Origin: Macrococcoides canis
Lineage (GTDB): Bacteria > Bacillota > Bacilli > Staphylococcales > Staphylococcaceae
DNA length: 64,000 bases
Direction: 5' to 3'
NCBI RefSeq assembly: GCF_002119805.1
Contig: NZ_CP021059.1
Span: 124,001-188,000 of the forward strand
Made by a program: the position numbers and the translations under genes. Within the stretch, counting starts at the first letter, position 1; each line of letters begins with the position of its first letter. The notes beneath the pieces were generated by a model. The model did no database searches. It was not told where the DNA came from and saw nothing but the letters and a program-made list of their open reading frames with translations. Of this stretch, positions 18,419 to 32,262 are shown piece by piece.

Positions 18419-18982
18419 TTATTTTGTTTCATCATTGAATAATTCAGCAGTAGTGACGTTCTTACCCATAAGTGGGAAAGCATTGTTCAATGAAAAGTCA
18501 TGTAAGTGTTCGGCAGGAGCGGACATCATATCTGTTACAAAAAGTTGTTCATAATGATATTGATATGCATCTCTTGCTGTAGTATCCACACCCATATGTG
18601 TAGAAATACCACCAAGTACTATCGTGTCAATGCCGCGACGTCTAAGCTGTAAATCTAGATCGGTACCAAAGAATGCACTGAAGCCACGTTTGTTTACGAT
18701 ATAATCCTGATCAGATACGTTTAGTTCTTCAGCAAATTCAGAAAAATCTCCATCTGGCTTACCTGGTAAAGGTTTAGTTGCAAGTTTTGGAGATAATGCA
18801 TCTTTACCATCTTGAAATTTTACTCTGACAAAGACGACAAATCCGTTATTTTTTCGGAACATTTCTACAGCTTTTGCCGCGTTTCTTACGACTGTTGTCG
18901 TATCGTGTGGGGCAGTGTCCATAGCTAAGATTCCTTTTTGTAAATCGATAAGTACTAATGCAGTTTTTTTATAATCTATCAT
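18419..18982 (-). CDS. Isochorismatase-fold protein lacking the Cys
   Basis: 187 residues with the isochorismatase-like hydrolase fold: ALVLIDLQKGI with D13, the conserved Lys in VNKRGFSAF (K98), and GGISTHMGVDTTARDAYQ. In the Cys-hydrolase branch the nucleophile follows THM/TNI; here that position is Gly131. True isochorismatases (EntB, DhbB, PhzD) also lack the Cys, so the chemistry could be vinyl-ether hydrolysis rather than amide hydrolysis, but no siderophore genes lie nearby. It follows nat with a one-base gap in a tetR-nat operon. Confidence 0.75.
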   Translation of the reverse strand: MIDYKKTALVLIDLQKGILAMDTAPHDTTTVVRNAAKAVEMFRKNNGFVVFVRVKFQDGKDALSPKLATKPLPGKPDGDFSEFAEELNVSDQDYIVNKRGFSAFFGTDLDLQLRRRGIDTIVLGGISTHMGVDTTARDAYQYHYEQLFVTDMMSAPAEHLHDFSLNNAFPLMGKNVTTAELFNDETK

Positions 18983-28882: not shown

Positions 28883-28902
28883 TTTAGAAAAGGATGATTT
28901 AT

Positions 28903-30642
28903 ATGAGTAAAATAAAAGCGAACGACGCATTAGTAAAAGCATTGTCAAACTGGGGAATCGATCATGTATATGGAATACCTGGAGACACAATTGATACTGT
29001 TGTAGATGCTTTAAAAAGTGCGGAAGAAAAAATAAAGTTTTATCAAGTAAGACATGAAGAAGTCGCATCCTTAGCTGCAAGCAGCTATGCGAAATTAACA
29101 GGGAAGATTGCAGTAGCGCTTGGTATTGGTGGTCCAGGTGCAATTCATCTGTTAAACGGGATGTATGATGCTAAGATGGATAATGTTCCTATGTTAGTAC
29201 TTGTAGGTCAAGCTGATACAGGGGTACTTGGAACGAAATATTTCCAGGAAACTAACCTCGTTAAAATGTTTGAAGATGTTGCAGTATATAACAAACAGTT
29301 GACGGAAGCAGATGCCCAAGATATTTATACGATTGTAAATAAAGCGATACAAACAGCATATGCCAAAAAAGGTGTCGCAGTAATCAGTGTGCCTGGGAAT
29401 GTTTTAGCGACTAAAATAGAAGATCATACTAAAAATGAACAATTTGTATTTAATAAAGCGCATATTACTGTAGATACTGAAAAGATAGAACAAGCGGCAA
29501 ATCTAATTGATAAAAGTGAAAAACCAGTAATATTAGCCGGAGTTGGAGCGAAACATGCGAAATCAGAACTTGCACGACTGAGTGAACAAGCAGGAATACC
29601 AACTATTGTCACCCTGCCTGCTAAGGGAGTAATGGCAGATGATCATCCTAATTTCCTGGGGAATCTCGGTAAGATTGGAACAAAACCCGCATTTGAAGCG
29701 TCTAAAGAAGCAGATTTATTAATCATGATTGGAACGAATTATCCTTATGTGGACTATTTACCCGATAAAGATATTCCATGTATACAAATTGATATTAATG
29801 AAGATAATATTGGGAATCGATTTGACGTTACTGTACCTTTGATTGGAGATTCAAAAGAGATACTTGAGCAATTAACAAATGCAGTACCAAAGTCAGACGA
29901 CCGAAAATTTTTAATGGCCTGTCAAGAAAACATGCAGCTATGGAATGACTGGATGGATGAAGATAGAGAAAATCTTTCAGAGCCAATTAGACCAGAGTAT
30001 TTAATGTCAGAACTTAATCAGATTACCAATCCATATACAACGTATTCTATAGATGTAGGAACATCGACGGTATGGAGTACGAGATATTTAAAAGTTGGTA
30101 ACGATAATAAATTTATTACTTCTGCATGGTTGGGAACTATGGGCTGTGCATTGCCAGGAGCGATTGCAAGCAAGATTGCTTTCCCGAATCATCAGGCGAT
30201 TGCCGTTACAGGTGACGGTGCATTTTCAATGGTCATGCAAGACTTTGCTACAGCTGTTAAATATGATCTGCCGATTATCGTGATTGTATTAAATAATCAA
30301 CAACTCTCATTTATTAAGTACGAACAACAAGCTGCCGGTGAAATGGAGTATGCAATTGATTTGCAAGATATTGACTATGCAAAGTTCGCAGAAAGTTGTG
30401 GCGGTGTTGGGATTACAGTGAAAAAACCGGACGAACTTGGTCCTGCATTGAGACATGCAAGAGACATTAATAAGCCTGTTGTTATCAATGTATATGTAGA
30501 TGAAGAGGCTGCGCCATTACCTGGGCAAATTGTTTTTGATGAGATGCTGGGTTATGCAAAATTTGAAATTAGAAATTTATTAGAAGAAAATAAACTAGCA
30601 AAAATGCCTCCATTAAAAACGATTATGAGAAGAATTTTATAA
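28903..30642 (+). CDS. cidC: Pyruvate oxidase (CidC-type)
   Basis: A 579-residue TPP- and FAD-dependent pyruvate:quinone oxidase, the length of staphylococcal CidC. It shows GIDHVYGIPGDTIDTVVDAL and VRHEEVASLAASSYAKLTG (TPP domain), AVTGDGAFSMVMQDFATAVK (TPP Mg motif) and the C-terminal membrane-facing tail after PLPGQIVFDEMLGYAK. It decarboxylates pyruvate to acetate and CO2, feeding electrons to menaquinone, and is linked to overflow acetate and cell-death control. The ATG at 28903 follows AAAAGGATG. No cidAB genes are adjacent. Acetate produced could be recaptured by the ActP system at 47 kb. Confidence 0.9.
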   Translation: MSKIKANDALVKALSNWGIDHVYGIPGDTIDTVVDALKSAEEKIKFYQVRHEEVASLAASSYAKLTGKIAVALGIGGPGAIHLLNGMYDAKMDNVPMLVLVGQADTGVLGTKYFQETNLVKMFEDVAVYNKQLTEADAQDIYTIVNKAIQTAYAKKGVAVISVPGNVLATKIEDHTKNEQFVFNKAHITVDTEKIEQAANLIDKSEKPVILAGVGAKHAKSELARLSEQAGIPTIVTLPAKGVMADDHPNFLGNLGKIGTKPAFEASKEADLLIMIGTNYPYVDYLPDKDIPCIQIDINEDNIGNRFDVTVPLIGDSKEILEQLTNAVPKSDDRKFLMACQENMQLWNDWMDEDRENLSEPIRPEYLMSELNQITNPYTTYSIDVGTSTVWSTRYLKVGNDNKFITSAWLGTMGCALPGAIASKIAFPNHQAIAVTGDGAFSMVMQDFATAVKYDLPIIVIVLNNQQLSFIKYEQQAAGEMEYAIDLQDIDYAKFAESCGGVGITVKKPDELGPALRHARDINKPVVINVYVDEEAAPLPGQIVFDEMLGYAKFEIRNLLEENKLAKMPPLKTIMRRIL

Positions 30643-30664
30643 TGATTTAATATTCAGAAAATTA

Positions 30665-30693
30665 TTGACCGGATTTTTAAAAACTGTTAATAT
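30665..30693 (+). promoter_or_regulatory. Promoter of the leader/NSS transcript
   Basis: -35 TTGACC (30665-30670), a 17-base spacer and -10 TAATAT (30688-30693). It starts a leader RNA of roughly 225 bases before the transporter ATG. Confidence 0.65.
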
Positions 30694-30726
30694 TAAGACA
30701 ACATAGAAAGTGAGGAAGAATATATC

Positions 30727-30774
30727 ATGACGGACTTATTAATGCAATTAAATAACTGGTGGCAGCTGTCCTGA
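30727..30774 (+). CDS. 15-residue Trp-codon leader peptide
   Basis: A short reading frame MTDLLMQLNNWWQLS runs from an ATG with GAGGAAG eight bases upstream to a TGA. Two adjacent TGG codons (30757-30762) sit four codons before the stop. The stop overlaps the foot of a hairpin, and a terminator with competing pairings follows. This is the layout of a ribosome-mediated attenuator sensing charged tRNA-Trp. The peptide has no other predicted role. Confidence 0.75.
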   Translation: MTDLLMQLNNWWQLS

Positions 30775-30893
30775 TACTTATAACCGTCATAGGTATAAGT
30801 ATCTATGGCGGCTTCCTTAGCATTCGCTTAAGAGGCCGATGTATGACCGGTCTCTATATTTAAGAGATCGTGTATACACACGGTCTCTTTTTT
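30773..30893 (+). promoter_or_regulatory. Trp attenuator with competing hairpins
   Basis: Hairpin A pairs 30773-30781 with 30795-30803, plus ACC/GGT inside. Its loop region (30784-30791, CCGTCATA) can instead pair with TATGGCGG (30804-30811). CGGCTTC (30809-30815) can pair with 30832-30838; AGAGGCCG (30831-30838) with CGGTCTCT (30848-30855); that segment with AGAGATCG (30863-30870); and 30862-30873 with 30878-30889 as terminator. Each pairing excludes the next. A ribosome stalled at the Trp codons leaves hairpin A to form, which by this chain favours antitermination. The pairings are seen; the logic is inferred. Confidence 0.7.
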
Positions 30894-30895
30894 AT
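30862..30895 (+). terminator. Regulated terminator before the NSS gene
   Basis: AAGAGATCGTGT pairs with ACACGGTCTCTT (one G-U) around ATAC, followed by a T run. Its 5' arm is shared with the antiterminator helix. Confidence 0.85.
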
Positions 30896-30924
30896 TTTAC
30901 ATTTACTTTTTAGGAGGGAATAAT

Positions 30925-32262
30925 ATGGATAGACAATCAAGCTTTACTTCGAAATTAGGATTTATCCTAGCAAGTGCAGGATCAGCGATAGGTTTAGGTG
31001 CGATGTGGAAGTTCCCTTATGTGATGGCTGATAATGGAGGGGCAGCCTTTCTAATTTTGTTTATTATCTTTACTTTATTTATTGGGTTACCGATATTGAT
31101 GAGTGAATTTGTGATGGGTGTTGCTGGAGAGACATATAGTACACGAGCATTTAGTAAGTTATCTGGTAAGAAGTATTATGATTTAATCGGACATCTTGGT
31201 AATATCGGTGTATTTTTGCTGATGAGCTTTTATAGCGTTATCGGTGGCTTCATCTTAATATATATTATGCGTACAATTAAGGTTATGTTTACTGGAGATT
31301 CAACAAAAGATTATGCAGCGCTATTTGGTAGTATCATATCGAATCCATTGAATACAATTACAGGGGTAATACTATTCTTAATATTAACGGCTGTTATTGT
31401 AATTAAAGGTGTGGAAAATGGTATTGAACGTGCCTCTAAATTTATGATGCCGATGTTATTTGTGATGTTTCTTATTATGATTATCCGTTCATTAACATTA
31501 CCAAATGCGATGGAAGGTGTTTCATTCTTCTTAAATCCAGACTTTCATAAACTCGATCAAGAAGCAGTTTTATTTGCATTAGGACAATCATTCTTCTCTT
31601 TATCTGTTGGGTTTGGAGGGATGCTGACTTATGCTTCTTATATGAAAAAAGGAACTGACCTCGTGCAGGCAGGAGGATATATTGTATTACTTAACATATT
31701 AGTAACGCTATTAGCAGGACTAGCGATATTTCCAGCTACAGCATCTTTAGGAATAGATAATGCGCAAGGTCCAGGTCTACTCTTTATTGTGTTACCTTAT
31801 GTGTTTAATCAGCTACCGTTTGGTTCGATATTCTATTTGATTTTCTTGTTGCTGTTTTTCTTTGCAACCATTACCTCATCAATTAGTCTAGTAGAGATAA
31901 ATGTTTCAAATATGACAAAGAATGATAATGCAAAACGTCTGAAGTCTGTACTTGCGATTATTTTAGGTATTTTCATTGTAAGTATTCCTTGCGCTTTATC
32001 TTTTGGACCGATAAGTGAGATGAAGTTCTTTAAAGGAACATTCTTTGATAATATGGATTTCCTTGTATCAAATATCATGTTGCCAATTGGTGTGCTGTGC
32101 TATACGTTATTCTCAGGATACGTATTAGATAAAAAGGTGATGAAAGCATATTTTGTTCAAAAGCCATATCAGGATAAACTGTTTAATGTATGGATTATAC
32201 TCCTTCGATATATTATTCCTATTGTCATATTATTTGTGATGATCAATCAGCTGATGCAGTAA
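30925..32262 (+). CDS. NSS sodium-dependent amino-acid transporter
   Basis: A 445-residue neurotransmitter:sodium symporter-family protein of the bacterial 11-helix type. Helix 1 reads GFILASAGSAIGLGAMWKFPYVMADNGGAAF with the unwound Gly-rich sodium/substrate site; helix 6 has FALGQSFFSLSVGFGGMLTYASYM. Bacterial members include TnaT (Trp), Tyt1 (Tyr) and MhsT (hydrophobic amino acids including Trp). The Trp-codon leader upstream makes tryptophan import the likely role. AGGAGGG precedes the ATG. Confidence 0.88.
   Translation: MDRQSSFTSKLGFILASAGSAIGLGAMWKFPYVMADNGGAAFLILFIIFTLFIGLPILMSEFVMGVAGETYSTRAFSKLSGKKYYDLIGHLGNIGVFLLMSFYSVIGGFILIYIMRTIKVMFTGDSTKDYAALFGSIISNPLNTITGVILFLILTAVIVIKGVENGIERASKFMMPMLFVMFLIMIIRSLTLPNAMEGVSFFLNPDFHKLDQEAVLFALGQSFFSLSVGFGGMLTYASYMKKGTDLVQAGGYIVLLNILVTLLAGLAIFPATASLGIDNAQGPGLLFIVLPYVFNQLPFGSIFYLIFLLLFFFATITSSISLVEINVSNMTKNDNAKRLKSVLAIILGIFIVSIPCALSFGPISEMKFFKGTFFDNMDFLVSNIMLPIGVLCYTLFSGYVLDKKVMKAYFVQKPYQDKLFNVWIILLRYIIPIVILFVMINQLMQ

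Follow-up and report, generated by a model that had tools for sequence, protein, structure and literature searches.

A predicted tryptophan-codon attenuator ahead of an NSS transporter gene in Macrococcoides canis and its shared layout with the riboswitch candidate RF04312

In attenuators of the E. coli trp type, tryptophan (Trp) codons lie next to segment 1 of a leader RNA whose segments pair as 1:2, 2:3 or 3:4, and T-boxes bind tRNA directly. Here we describe a leader region of Macrococcoides canis in which an open reading frame (ORF) with adjacent Trp codons precedes a gene for an NSS (SNF) family sodium-dependent transporter. It lies in a stretch of 64,000 nucleotides (RefSeq assembly GCF_002119805.1, contig NZ_CP021059.1, positions 124,001 to 188,000 of the forward strand), which we call the window and to which all coordinates refer. 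As in the classical trp attenuator, Trp codons stand by segment 1, and three helices of the window (Z, antiterminator C and first terminator T1; Table 1) take the places of 1:2, 2:3 and 3:4. Moreover, the classical 1:2 stem pairs the last codons of the leader, as Z does with the 3' arm of helix B. The window differs from it by the extra helices A and B, by a second terminator (T2) with its own antiterminator (E) and by its target, an importer; the Rfam family Trp_leader was absent among the matches of a permissive scan of the window leader. Within the same bacterial family, the T-box-like elements before trpE of sister genera likewise precede Trp genes, but they have no leader peptide and control a biosynthesis operon. 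Leader-peptide attenuation is also described in this family for the S. aureus ilv-leu leader (accessible part of PMC5794164), which carries Leu/Ile codons before a biosynthesis operon whereas the window carries Trp codons before an importer.

The RF04312 family (SRC-39-1, trpB ncRNA motif) was described in 2024 and rated a strong candidate for a riboswitch. Its more than 900 members lie mostly before an uncharacterized ABC transporter and occasionally before trpB; the authors stated that a classic attenuator could not be excluded (accessible part of PMC11109978). Like the window, RF04312 loci combine a Trp leader ORF, a helix Z made from the tail of the leader, a hairpin A at the stop codon and a hairpin B (equal to P1 of the motif), and then an antiterminator from the right shoulder of B and a terminator, mostly before importers of the trpX type. 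The published hallmark of the motif, a hairpin P1 whose right shoulder acts as antiterminator ahead of a terminator (PMC11109978, same part), is present in the window leader. Unlike RF04312, the window has a short B loop, two terminator hairpins and an NSS rather than an ABC importer, and its leader ends in WQLS-stop instead of WQxWRR-stop.

We propose that the window leader is very probably a transcription attenuator, mediated by the ribosome and responsive to charged tRNA-Trp, which controls a Trp importer and has its layout in common with RF04312. The presence of a Trp-leader attenuator before the NSS importer gene is well supported by sequence comparison. The original prediction had described a 15-codon leader with two adjacent Trp codons before the NSS gene, a hairpin (A) starting inside the leader stop codon, an alternative pairing of its loop with the next segment (B), and a terminator whose 5' arm doubles as antiterminator arm. 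All of these were found: the leader is read directly from the sequence, and the 5' arm of T2 pairs upstream as helix E. Helices Z, C and T1 had been missed. With two terminator hairpins in the leader, C opposes T1 and E opposes T2.

Conservation of the leader was assessed across the family. A pattern made of WQLS-stop and the hairpin A loop has one match in each of 16 genomes among the 108 of the family, all from three genera (g1, g2 and g4); the same pattern written backward gave no match in these 108 genomes. All 16 leaders (referred to below as Macrococcus leaders) precede the closest orthologue of the NSS gene, whose protein is matched in 108 of 108 genomes. Trp codons and competing pairings are therefore conserved before orthologous NSS genes in 16 of 16 leaders, the check that had been proposed with the original prediction. 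The ten leaders with two adjacent Trp codons are all readable as 15- or 18-codon ORFs (L002 also from an earlier ATG). The peptide (Q/K/P)-L-(N/K)-..-W-Q-L-S-stop is kept and residues further upstream diverge. The Leu before Trp is encoded by TTA, CTA, CTT, CTC or CTG, a variety that speaks for selection on the leader peptide. The Q-L-S codons are nearly invariant (CAG/CAA, CTG, TCN), as expected if they pair in helix Z. A covariance model of the leader core (R1) recovered the same 16 leaders strongly from 157 genomes of the order (sense strand E 2.4e-21 or better; others at least 0.05). Over 398 genomes of the class, it returned the seven sampled carriers and one weak match (E 0.007, G325).

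The helices themselves were examined by pair counts on the 16 leaders, 15 of them distinct. Z and A together are paired in 96.6% of cells and include two pairs with changes on both sides; B is paired in 100% of cells and C in 97.1%. The MAFFT alignment over T1 and T2 (A1) was too poor for pair counts, so the arms were compared by swap tests, whose numbers are inflated by kinship among the leader sequences. The arms of T2 favour their own partner (-17.0 versus -8.6 kcal/mol; 0 of 20000 permutations as good), and for C, T1, A and Z the permutations as good per 20000 were 0, 3, 17 and 95, respectively. T1 is followed by a U-run of at least five in 12 of 16 leaders; neither the window nor its nearest relatives (L087, L091 and L083) have the run. 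In the window itself, a short ORF with a ribosome-binding site ahead of the gene is present, as is a mutually exclusive pair of antiterminator and U-run terminator. T2 is the single terminator-like site in 30600-30960 (mean 0.1 in shuffles), and the minimum free energy (MFE) of 30690-30930 is -71.6 kcal/mol (z = -5.6), a value equalled by 0 of 200 shuffles.

We propose the following mechanism. When Trp is scarce, a ribosome waiting at the Trp codons would cover the tail of the leader and prevent helix Z. Hairpin A, starting just beyond the edge of the ribosome, would form and block B, and the 3' arm of B, thereby free, would enter antiterminator C and disarm T1. The freed 3' arm of T1 would then form helix E, T2 would be disarmed in turn and the transporter gene transcribed. 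When Trp is plentiful, the ribosome would get to the stop codon, cover A and let B form. After its release, Z plus A, or B, would form and hold the 3' arm of B, so that C would be disfavoured and T1/T2 would end transcription.

Positions of the ribosome agree with this scheme. The usual footprint reaches 15 bases beyond the first base of the P site. With this footprint, when the last Trp codon occupies the A site, the RNA is free from 30773 onwards, where A begins; a ribosome at the stop codon leaves it free from 30785 onwards, and the 5' arm of A is buried. When the RNA under the ribosome was removed, the MFE fold at the decision point contained A and C in 13 of 16 leaders for a stall at the second Trp codon and in 14 of 16 for the first. 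In free RNA at the same point, the probability of C was below 0.2 in ten of 16 leaders and that of Z at least 0.8 in 11 of 16. At the T1 point, a stall at the first Trp codon raised the probability of C above that without a ribosome in 15 of 16 leaders and above that with a ribosome at the stop position in 14 of 16, and never lowered it. The chain of helices claimed in the original prediction is supported with these additions, but its A/B part is less decisive than had been claimed, as C can stand beside a shortened B in Macrococcus when the ribosome is at the stop codon.

A number of results weigh against this mechanism. C beside the shortened B reaches 0.43-1.00 at the decision point in the stop-codon state of Macrococcus leaders, and for a stall at the last Trp codon, C at the T1 point is more probable than with the ribosome at the stop codon in just nine of 16 leaders and less probable in two. 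The free RNA of the window favours C (0.94) over Z (0.06) at the decision point. In full-length RNA, equilibrium favours the terminators, or a hairpin joining T1 and T2, whatever the state of the ribosome; antiterminators are weaker than terminators at equilibrium in most leaders, and the probability of C in the stalled state at the T2 point is at most 0.30. With terminators dominant even when the ribosome is stalled, antitermination must be kinetic, and the switch, should it operate, would depend on timing. T1 and T2 were computed for 16 leaders and E for 15 (the E picked in L089 clashed with another helix); by energy, E is stronger than T2 in six of these 15 and weaker in the window (-29.6 versus -31.7). 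Six of 16 leaders have just one Trp codon. In addition, the arms of B show no clear preference for their own partner in the swap test (2368 of 20000 permutations as good), and changes in B and C are one-sided only within Macrococcus. Finally, free RNA of the RF04312 loci described below has a median probability of just 0.03 for Z (A 0.67, B 0.17, C 0.22; 93 loci), so that Z there is backed by conservation and covariation and not by energy. Overall, equilibrium folding backs the modelled switch in part.

We then read RF04312 loci for leader peptides. RF04312 was found in 14 of 299 genomes of the class and, in the order that includes G229 (probably Lactobacillales), in 185 of 345. We read 96 loci, of which 12 came from one search, 24 were the best matches of the next and 60 were taken mostly in order of falling score (G656, at a contig end, was omitted, and second copies in G611 and G583 were added out of order). 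Another 20 weak-scoring loci formed the end of the matches listed, with G348 omitted as already in the set. Trp was required within the last 14 residues of the top-ranked upstream short ORF for the 96 loci and within the last 16 for the weak ones. It was present at 93 of 96 loci, compared with a mean of 2.3 and a highest value of 6 in 50 shuffles of the upstream DNA. Among weak loci, the count was 19 of 20, and the remaining one has Trp in its second-ranked ORF. In total, 112 of 116 RF04312 loci have Trp in the top-ranked short ORF directly upstream. Typical leaders read ..QLNNAWQSWRR-stop or ..WQNWRR-stop, with WQ in 81 of 96, and the ORFs end 8-33 bases before the motif. The Leu codons before Trp are TTG, TTA, CTG and CTA.

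Genes downstream of the motif carry a TrpX-like signature, as captured by a pattern of our own making, at 88 of 96 loci. Nine downstream proteins were compared with NCBIfam: five were TrpX-like (two above cut-off), three were trpB (above cut-off) and one was hisZ-like. The leader before this hisZ-like gene (L178; 218 bits, cut-off 272) contains HHHH, and His codons in this place fit codon sensing. Leaders with YYFSYF (L180) and FYFSYF (L264) precede TrpX-like proteins with 384 and 319 bits, respectively, against a cut-off of 390. L236, which has a Trp leader, also falls below this cut-off with 373, so that a TrpX score below the cut-off does not indicate another substrate. The importers of L180 and L264 may be transporters of Tyr/Phe, for which TrpX may be a misleading name. 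Two loci (L171, L175) have RF04312 and a Trp leader, but the roughly 1.5 kb downstream contain no long ORF that starts with ATG. At L182, the motif is followed by an ORF resembling, by eye, a group II intron reverse transcriptase, as if an intron splits attenuator and gene.

The helices of the window leader are found at these loci as well. Of 96 loci, 89 have Z with at least seven pairs, 81 have A with at least six, 96 have B and 89 have C with at least six. For every helix compared, Z and A included, pairing was better between own than between swapped arms (0 of 5000, all 96 loci); the stop codon and B defined the swap windows for Z and A, and helices already picked defined those for B, C and T. 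In a 32-row alignment (A3), Z and A have 39 cells changed on both sides, compared with 10.7 when shuffled (0 of 500) and at most 21 in slid controls. A3 was drawn from the 78 of 96 loci with seven or more Z pairs and six or more A pairs, thinned to 33 with L178 then omitted, and its pair counts lean towards structure through this selection. As in the window, the first base of hairpin A is the second base of the stop codon in 57 of 96 loci. Folding was done for the 93 loci with Trp. With the ribosome stalled on the last Trp codon, the median probabilities of A and C are 0.95 and 0.98, compared with medians of 0.98 for B and 0.03 for C with the ribosome at the stop codon. The probability of C in the stalled state is higher than in the stop state in 81 of 93 loci (lower in seven) and higher than in the free state in 71 of 93 (lower in seven). 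This modelled contrast between stalled and stop states is the cleanest evidence here for an attenuator layout. As judged from the sequences, the riboswitch candidate RF04312 is most likely a leader-peptide attenuator.

How the Macrococcus leader relates to RF04312 is less settled. The permissive Rfam scan of the window leader (291 nt) matched RF04312 at 28.3 bits (E 0.037). We also built a model (R2) from RF04312 loci together with their leaders. In a search over 113 kb, R2 placed 12 of the 16 leaders from Macrococcus in register (17-24 bits, E 0.019-0.53), and in the three alignments displayed, Trp codon falls on Trp codon with Z and A aligned. Several observations weaken this link. The scan of the window leader stayed below the RF04312 gathering score of 59 bits, and RF04312 matched two of five Macrococcus loci scanned (L089 at 28.9 bits; three without a match). 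R2 missed four of 16 leaders, namely the window leader, those of its two nearest relatives (L087 and L091) and that of L098, and it scored the antisense strand of L093 slightly above the sense strand. Genome-wide, the single leader found by R2 was that of G014 (E 0.52), below non-leader matches in genus g5 (best 0.23). A match of R2 in the window at 18749 was taken as chance, and R1 reached E 0.043 at best on RF04312 loci. The shared Q-L-N..W-Q and the same order of parts make common descent likely, if unproven, and the Macrococcus NSS leader is probably, though by no means certainly, a divergent relative of RF04312.

The authors of RF04312 saw in it a strong riboswitch candidate and conceded the attenuator alternative (PMC11109978, same part), and the window leader could likewise be a riboswitch binding Trp or a relative of it, with the short ORF incidental. 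A structured RNA with a terminator would suit this, but a riboswitch is hard to reconcile with the 112 of 116 RF04312 loci whose top-ranked short ORF contains Trp, with Trp in all 16 Macrococcus leaders, with sensing codons that become His before a hisZ-like gene, or with a hairpin A that begins at or near the stop codon and a helix Z built from leader codons. We consider it highly improbable. Conservation of leader, Z, A, B and C over three genera, together with the shuffle and swap controls, leaves hardly any credibility to a plain pair of intergenic terminators with a chance ORF and no Trp regulation, even though terminators do dominate in all states at equilibrium.

Arrest of the ribosome by free Trp is known from TnaC. 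In a comparable arrangement, the nascent QLN..WQ(LS) would sense free Trp and hold the ribosome at or near the stop codon, favouring B and termination when Trp is high. The L-N/K before Trp kept in Macrococcus and RF04312 leaders despite differing Leu codons points in this direction, as does L-N/H/K before an aromatic residue in 48 of 96 RF04312 leaders (15.2, highest 27, with shuffled N-terminal parts), and so does the single Trp in six relatives. However, the layout is kept in His and Tyr/Phe versions, L180 and L264 have QLN without Trp, and the two or more Trp codons of most leaders fit codon starvation; arrest by free Trp is in our view very unlikely.

Going further, RF04312 and the Macrococcus NSS leader may be one portable attenuator chassis, moved and recoded, with Q-L-N as a nascent-chain aid, swappable codons and the series Z/A/B/C/T; we regard this as possible, if a little short of probable. 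If true, the chassis would have moved among the trpX-type ABC importer, trpB, the hisZ-like gene and the NSS importer, its sensing codons would have been recoded from Trp to His and Tyr/Phe, and the published riboswitch candidate would be explained. The main value of the window leader is that it led to a putative mechanism for the orphan RF04312 motif, one that is concrete and testable for a candidate with more than 900 representatives (PMC11109978, same part). The original prediction had called a Trp-codon attenuator before a sodium-coupled importer new. We found none before an NSS importer in the literature searched. When RF04312 loci are read for leaders, however, Trp leaders turn out to be common ahead of Trp importers in a different bacterial order.

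Positions of all parts and of the neighbouring genes are collected in Table 1.

Table 1. Features of the leader region and its neighbours (window positions).
Feature	Position	Strand	Basis or remark
Pyruvate oxidase gene	28894-30642		5' neighbour of the leader region
Promoter-like site, TTGACC - 17 - TAATAT, TG ahead of second hexamer	30665..30693	+	Similar sites in relatives at the same place, by eye
GAGGAAG, Shine-Dalgarno-like, of leader ORF	30712..30718	+	Sequence
Leader peptide ORF, MTDLLMQLNNWWQLS-stop	30727..30774	+	15 codons, stop TGA 30772-30774; L-N/K..W-Q-L-S-stop part kept in 16 genomes
Adjacent Trp codons TGG TGG	30757..30762	+	Sequence; WW in 10/16, single W in 6/16 genomes
Helix Z, 5' arm, AGCTGTC (codons Q-L-S)	30764..30770	+	Folding, pair counts
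Helix Z, 3' arm, GGCGGCT	30807..30813	+	Folding, pair counts
Hairpin A, 30773-30782 with 30794-30803	30773..30803	+	Begins within leader stop codon
Hairpin (helix) B, 30784-30795 with 30800-30811	30784..30811	+	A loop paired with next segment; excludes A
Antiterminator C, 30809-30815 with 30832-30838	30809..30838	+	Folding, pair counts, swap test
Hairpin T1 (first terminator), 30831-30838 with 30848-30855	30831..30855	+	Without U-run in window
Helix E, 30848-30855 with 30863-30870	30848..30870	+	Opposes T2; weaker than T2 by energy in window
Terminator T2, 30862-30873 with 30878-30889, then T-rich tail	30862..30899	+	Arms co-vary across relatives
AGGAGG, Shine-Dalgarno of transporter gene	30912..30917	+	Sequence
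NSS (SNF) family sodium-dependent transporter gene, 445 aa	30925..32262	+	Nearest solved structure MhsT

The nearest solved relative of the NSS protein is MhsT (4us3, E 1.9e-83), a transporter of Trp and other hydrophobic amino acids; the protein is probably an importer of Trp (aromatic/hydrophobic amino acids). Its best named match is from Macrococcoides caseolyticum DSM 20597 (94% identity), in a search that may omit records very close to the window's own. In a 24-row tree, leader-bearing NSS proteins are separate (100/98) from a second NSS copy, which clusters with Staphylococcus-type genes (99/96). This second copy is present in seven of 16 carriers; the window genome has a single NSS of this kind.

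The genomes carrying the leader were also searched for Trp biosynthesis genes. No TrpE-grade match was found in the 16 carriers (best 225 bits), compared with at least 366 bits in the other 25 of 41 genomes. No trpB above cut-off was found in the 16 carriers and G079, whereas 91 of 108 family genomes have one. The three genera of the carriers coincide exactly with those that have no good trpE/trpB match; lacking both genes, the carriers are probably Trp auxotrophs as judged from their genomes. They form one clade, so the loss counts as one evolutionary event. G079 (genus g5), in which trpB is broken into pieces (C1:1400598-1401392), has no leader and may be a candidate Trp auxotroph without one. 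These observations suggest that a lineage without a trp operon put an importer, and not biosynthesis, under Trp-codon attenuation despite the 13 T-box matches in the window genome. Of these 13, four are above cut-off and several lie, by eye, before synthetase genes.

Other Trp regulators were considered for the leader. A T-box was rejected, with no RF00230 match up to E 10, and so was control by TRAP, whose gene (PF02081) was found in 0 of 61 family genomes including that of the window and was recovered in the B. subtilis control. None of the known Rfam families matched the leader at gathering level. T-box-like elements stand before trpE in the sister-genus loci viewed among L099-L123, and several of six loci displayed have, by eye, tandem elements. 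The elements of L102 score 75 and 71 bits, below the Rfam gathering score of 93; the gathering level thus overlooks these sister-genus elements, and the absence of a match there carries little weight. A palindrome-like element, roughly CACTTTANCGCNTTAAAGTG, was seen by eye in many of the loci L017-L030, L134-L143 and L145, just past the -10-like region. It sits 5' of Staphylococcus-type NSS genes or second copies, was not seen before leader-bearing NSS genes, and is possibly an operator or a short RNA hairpin.

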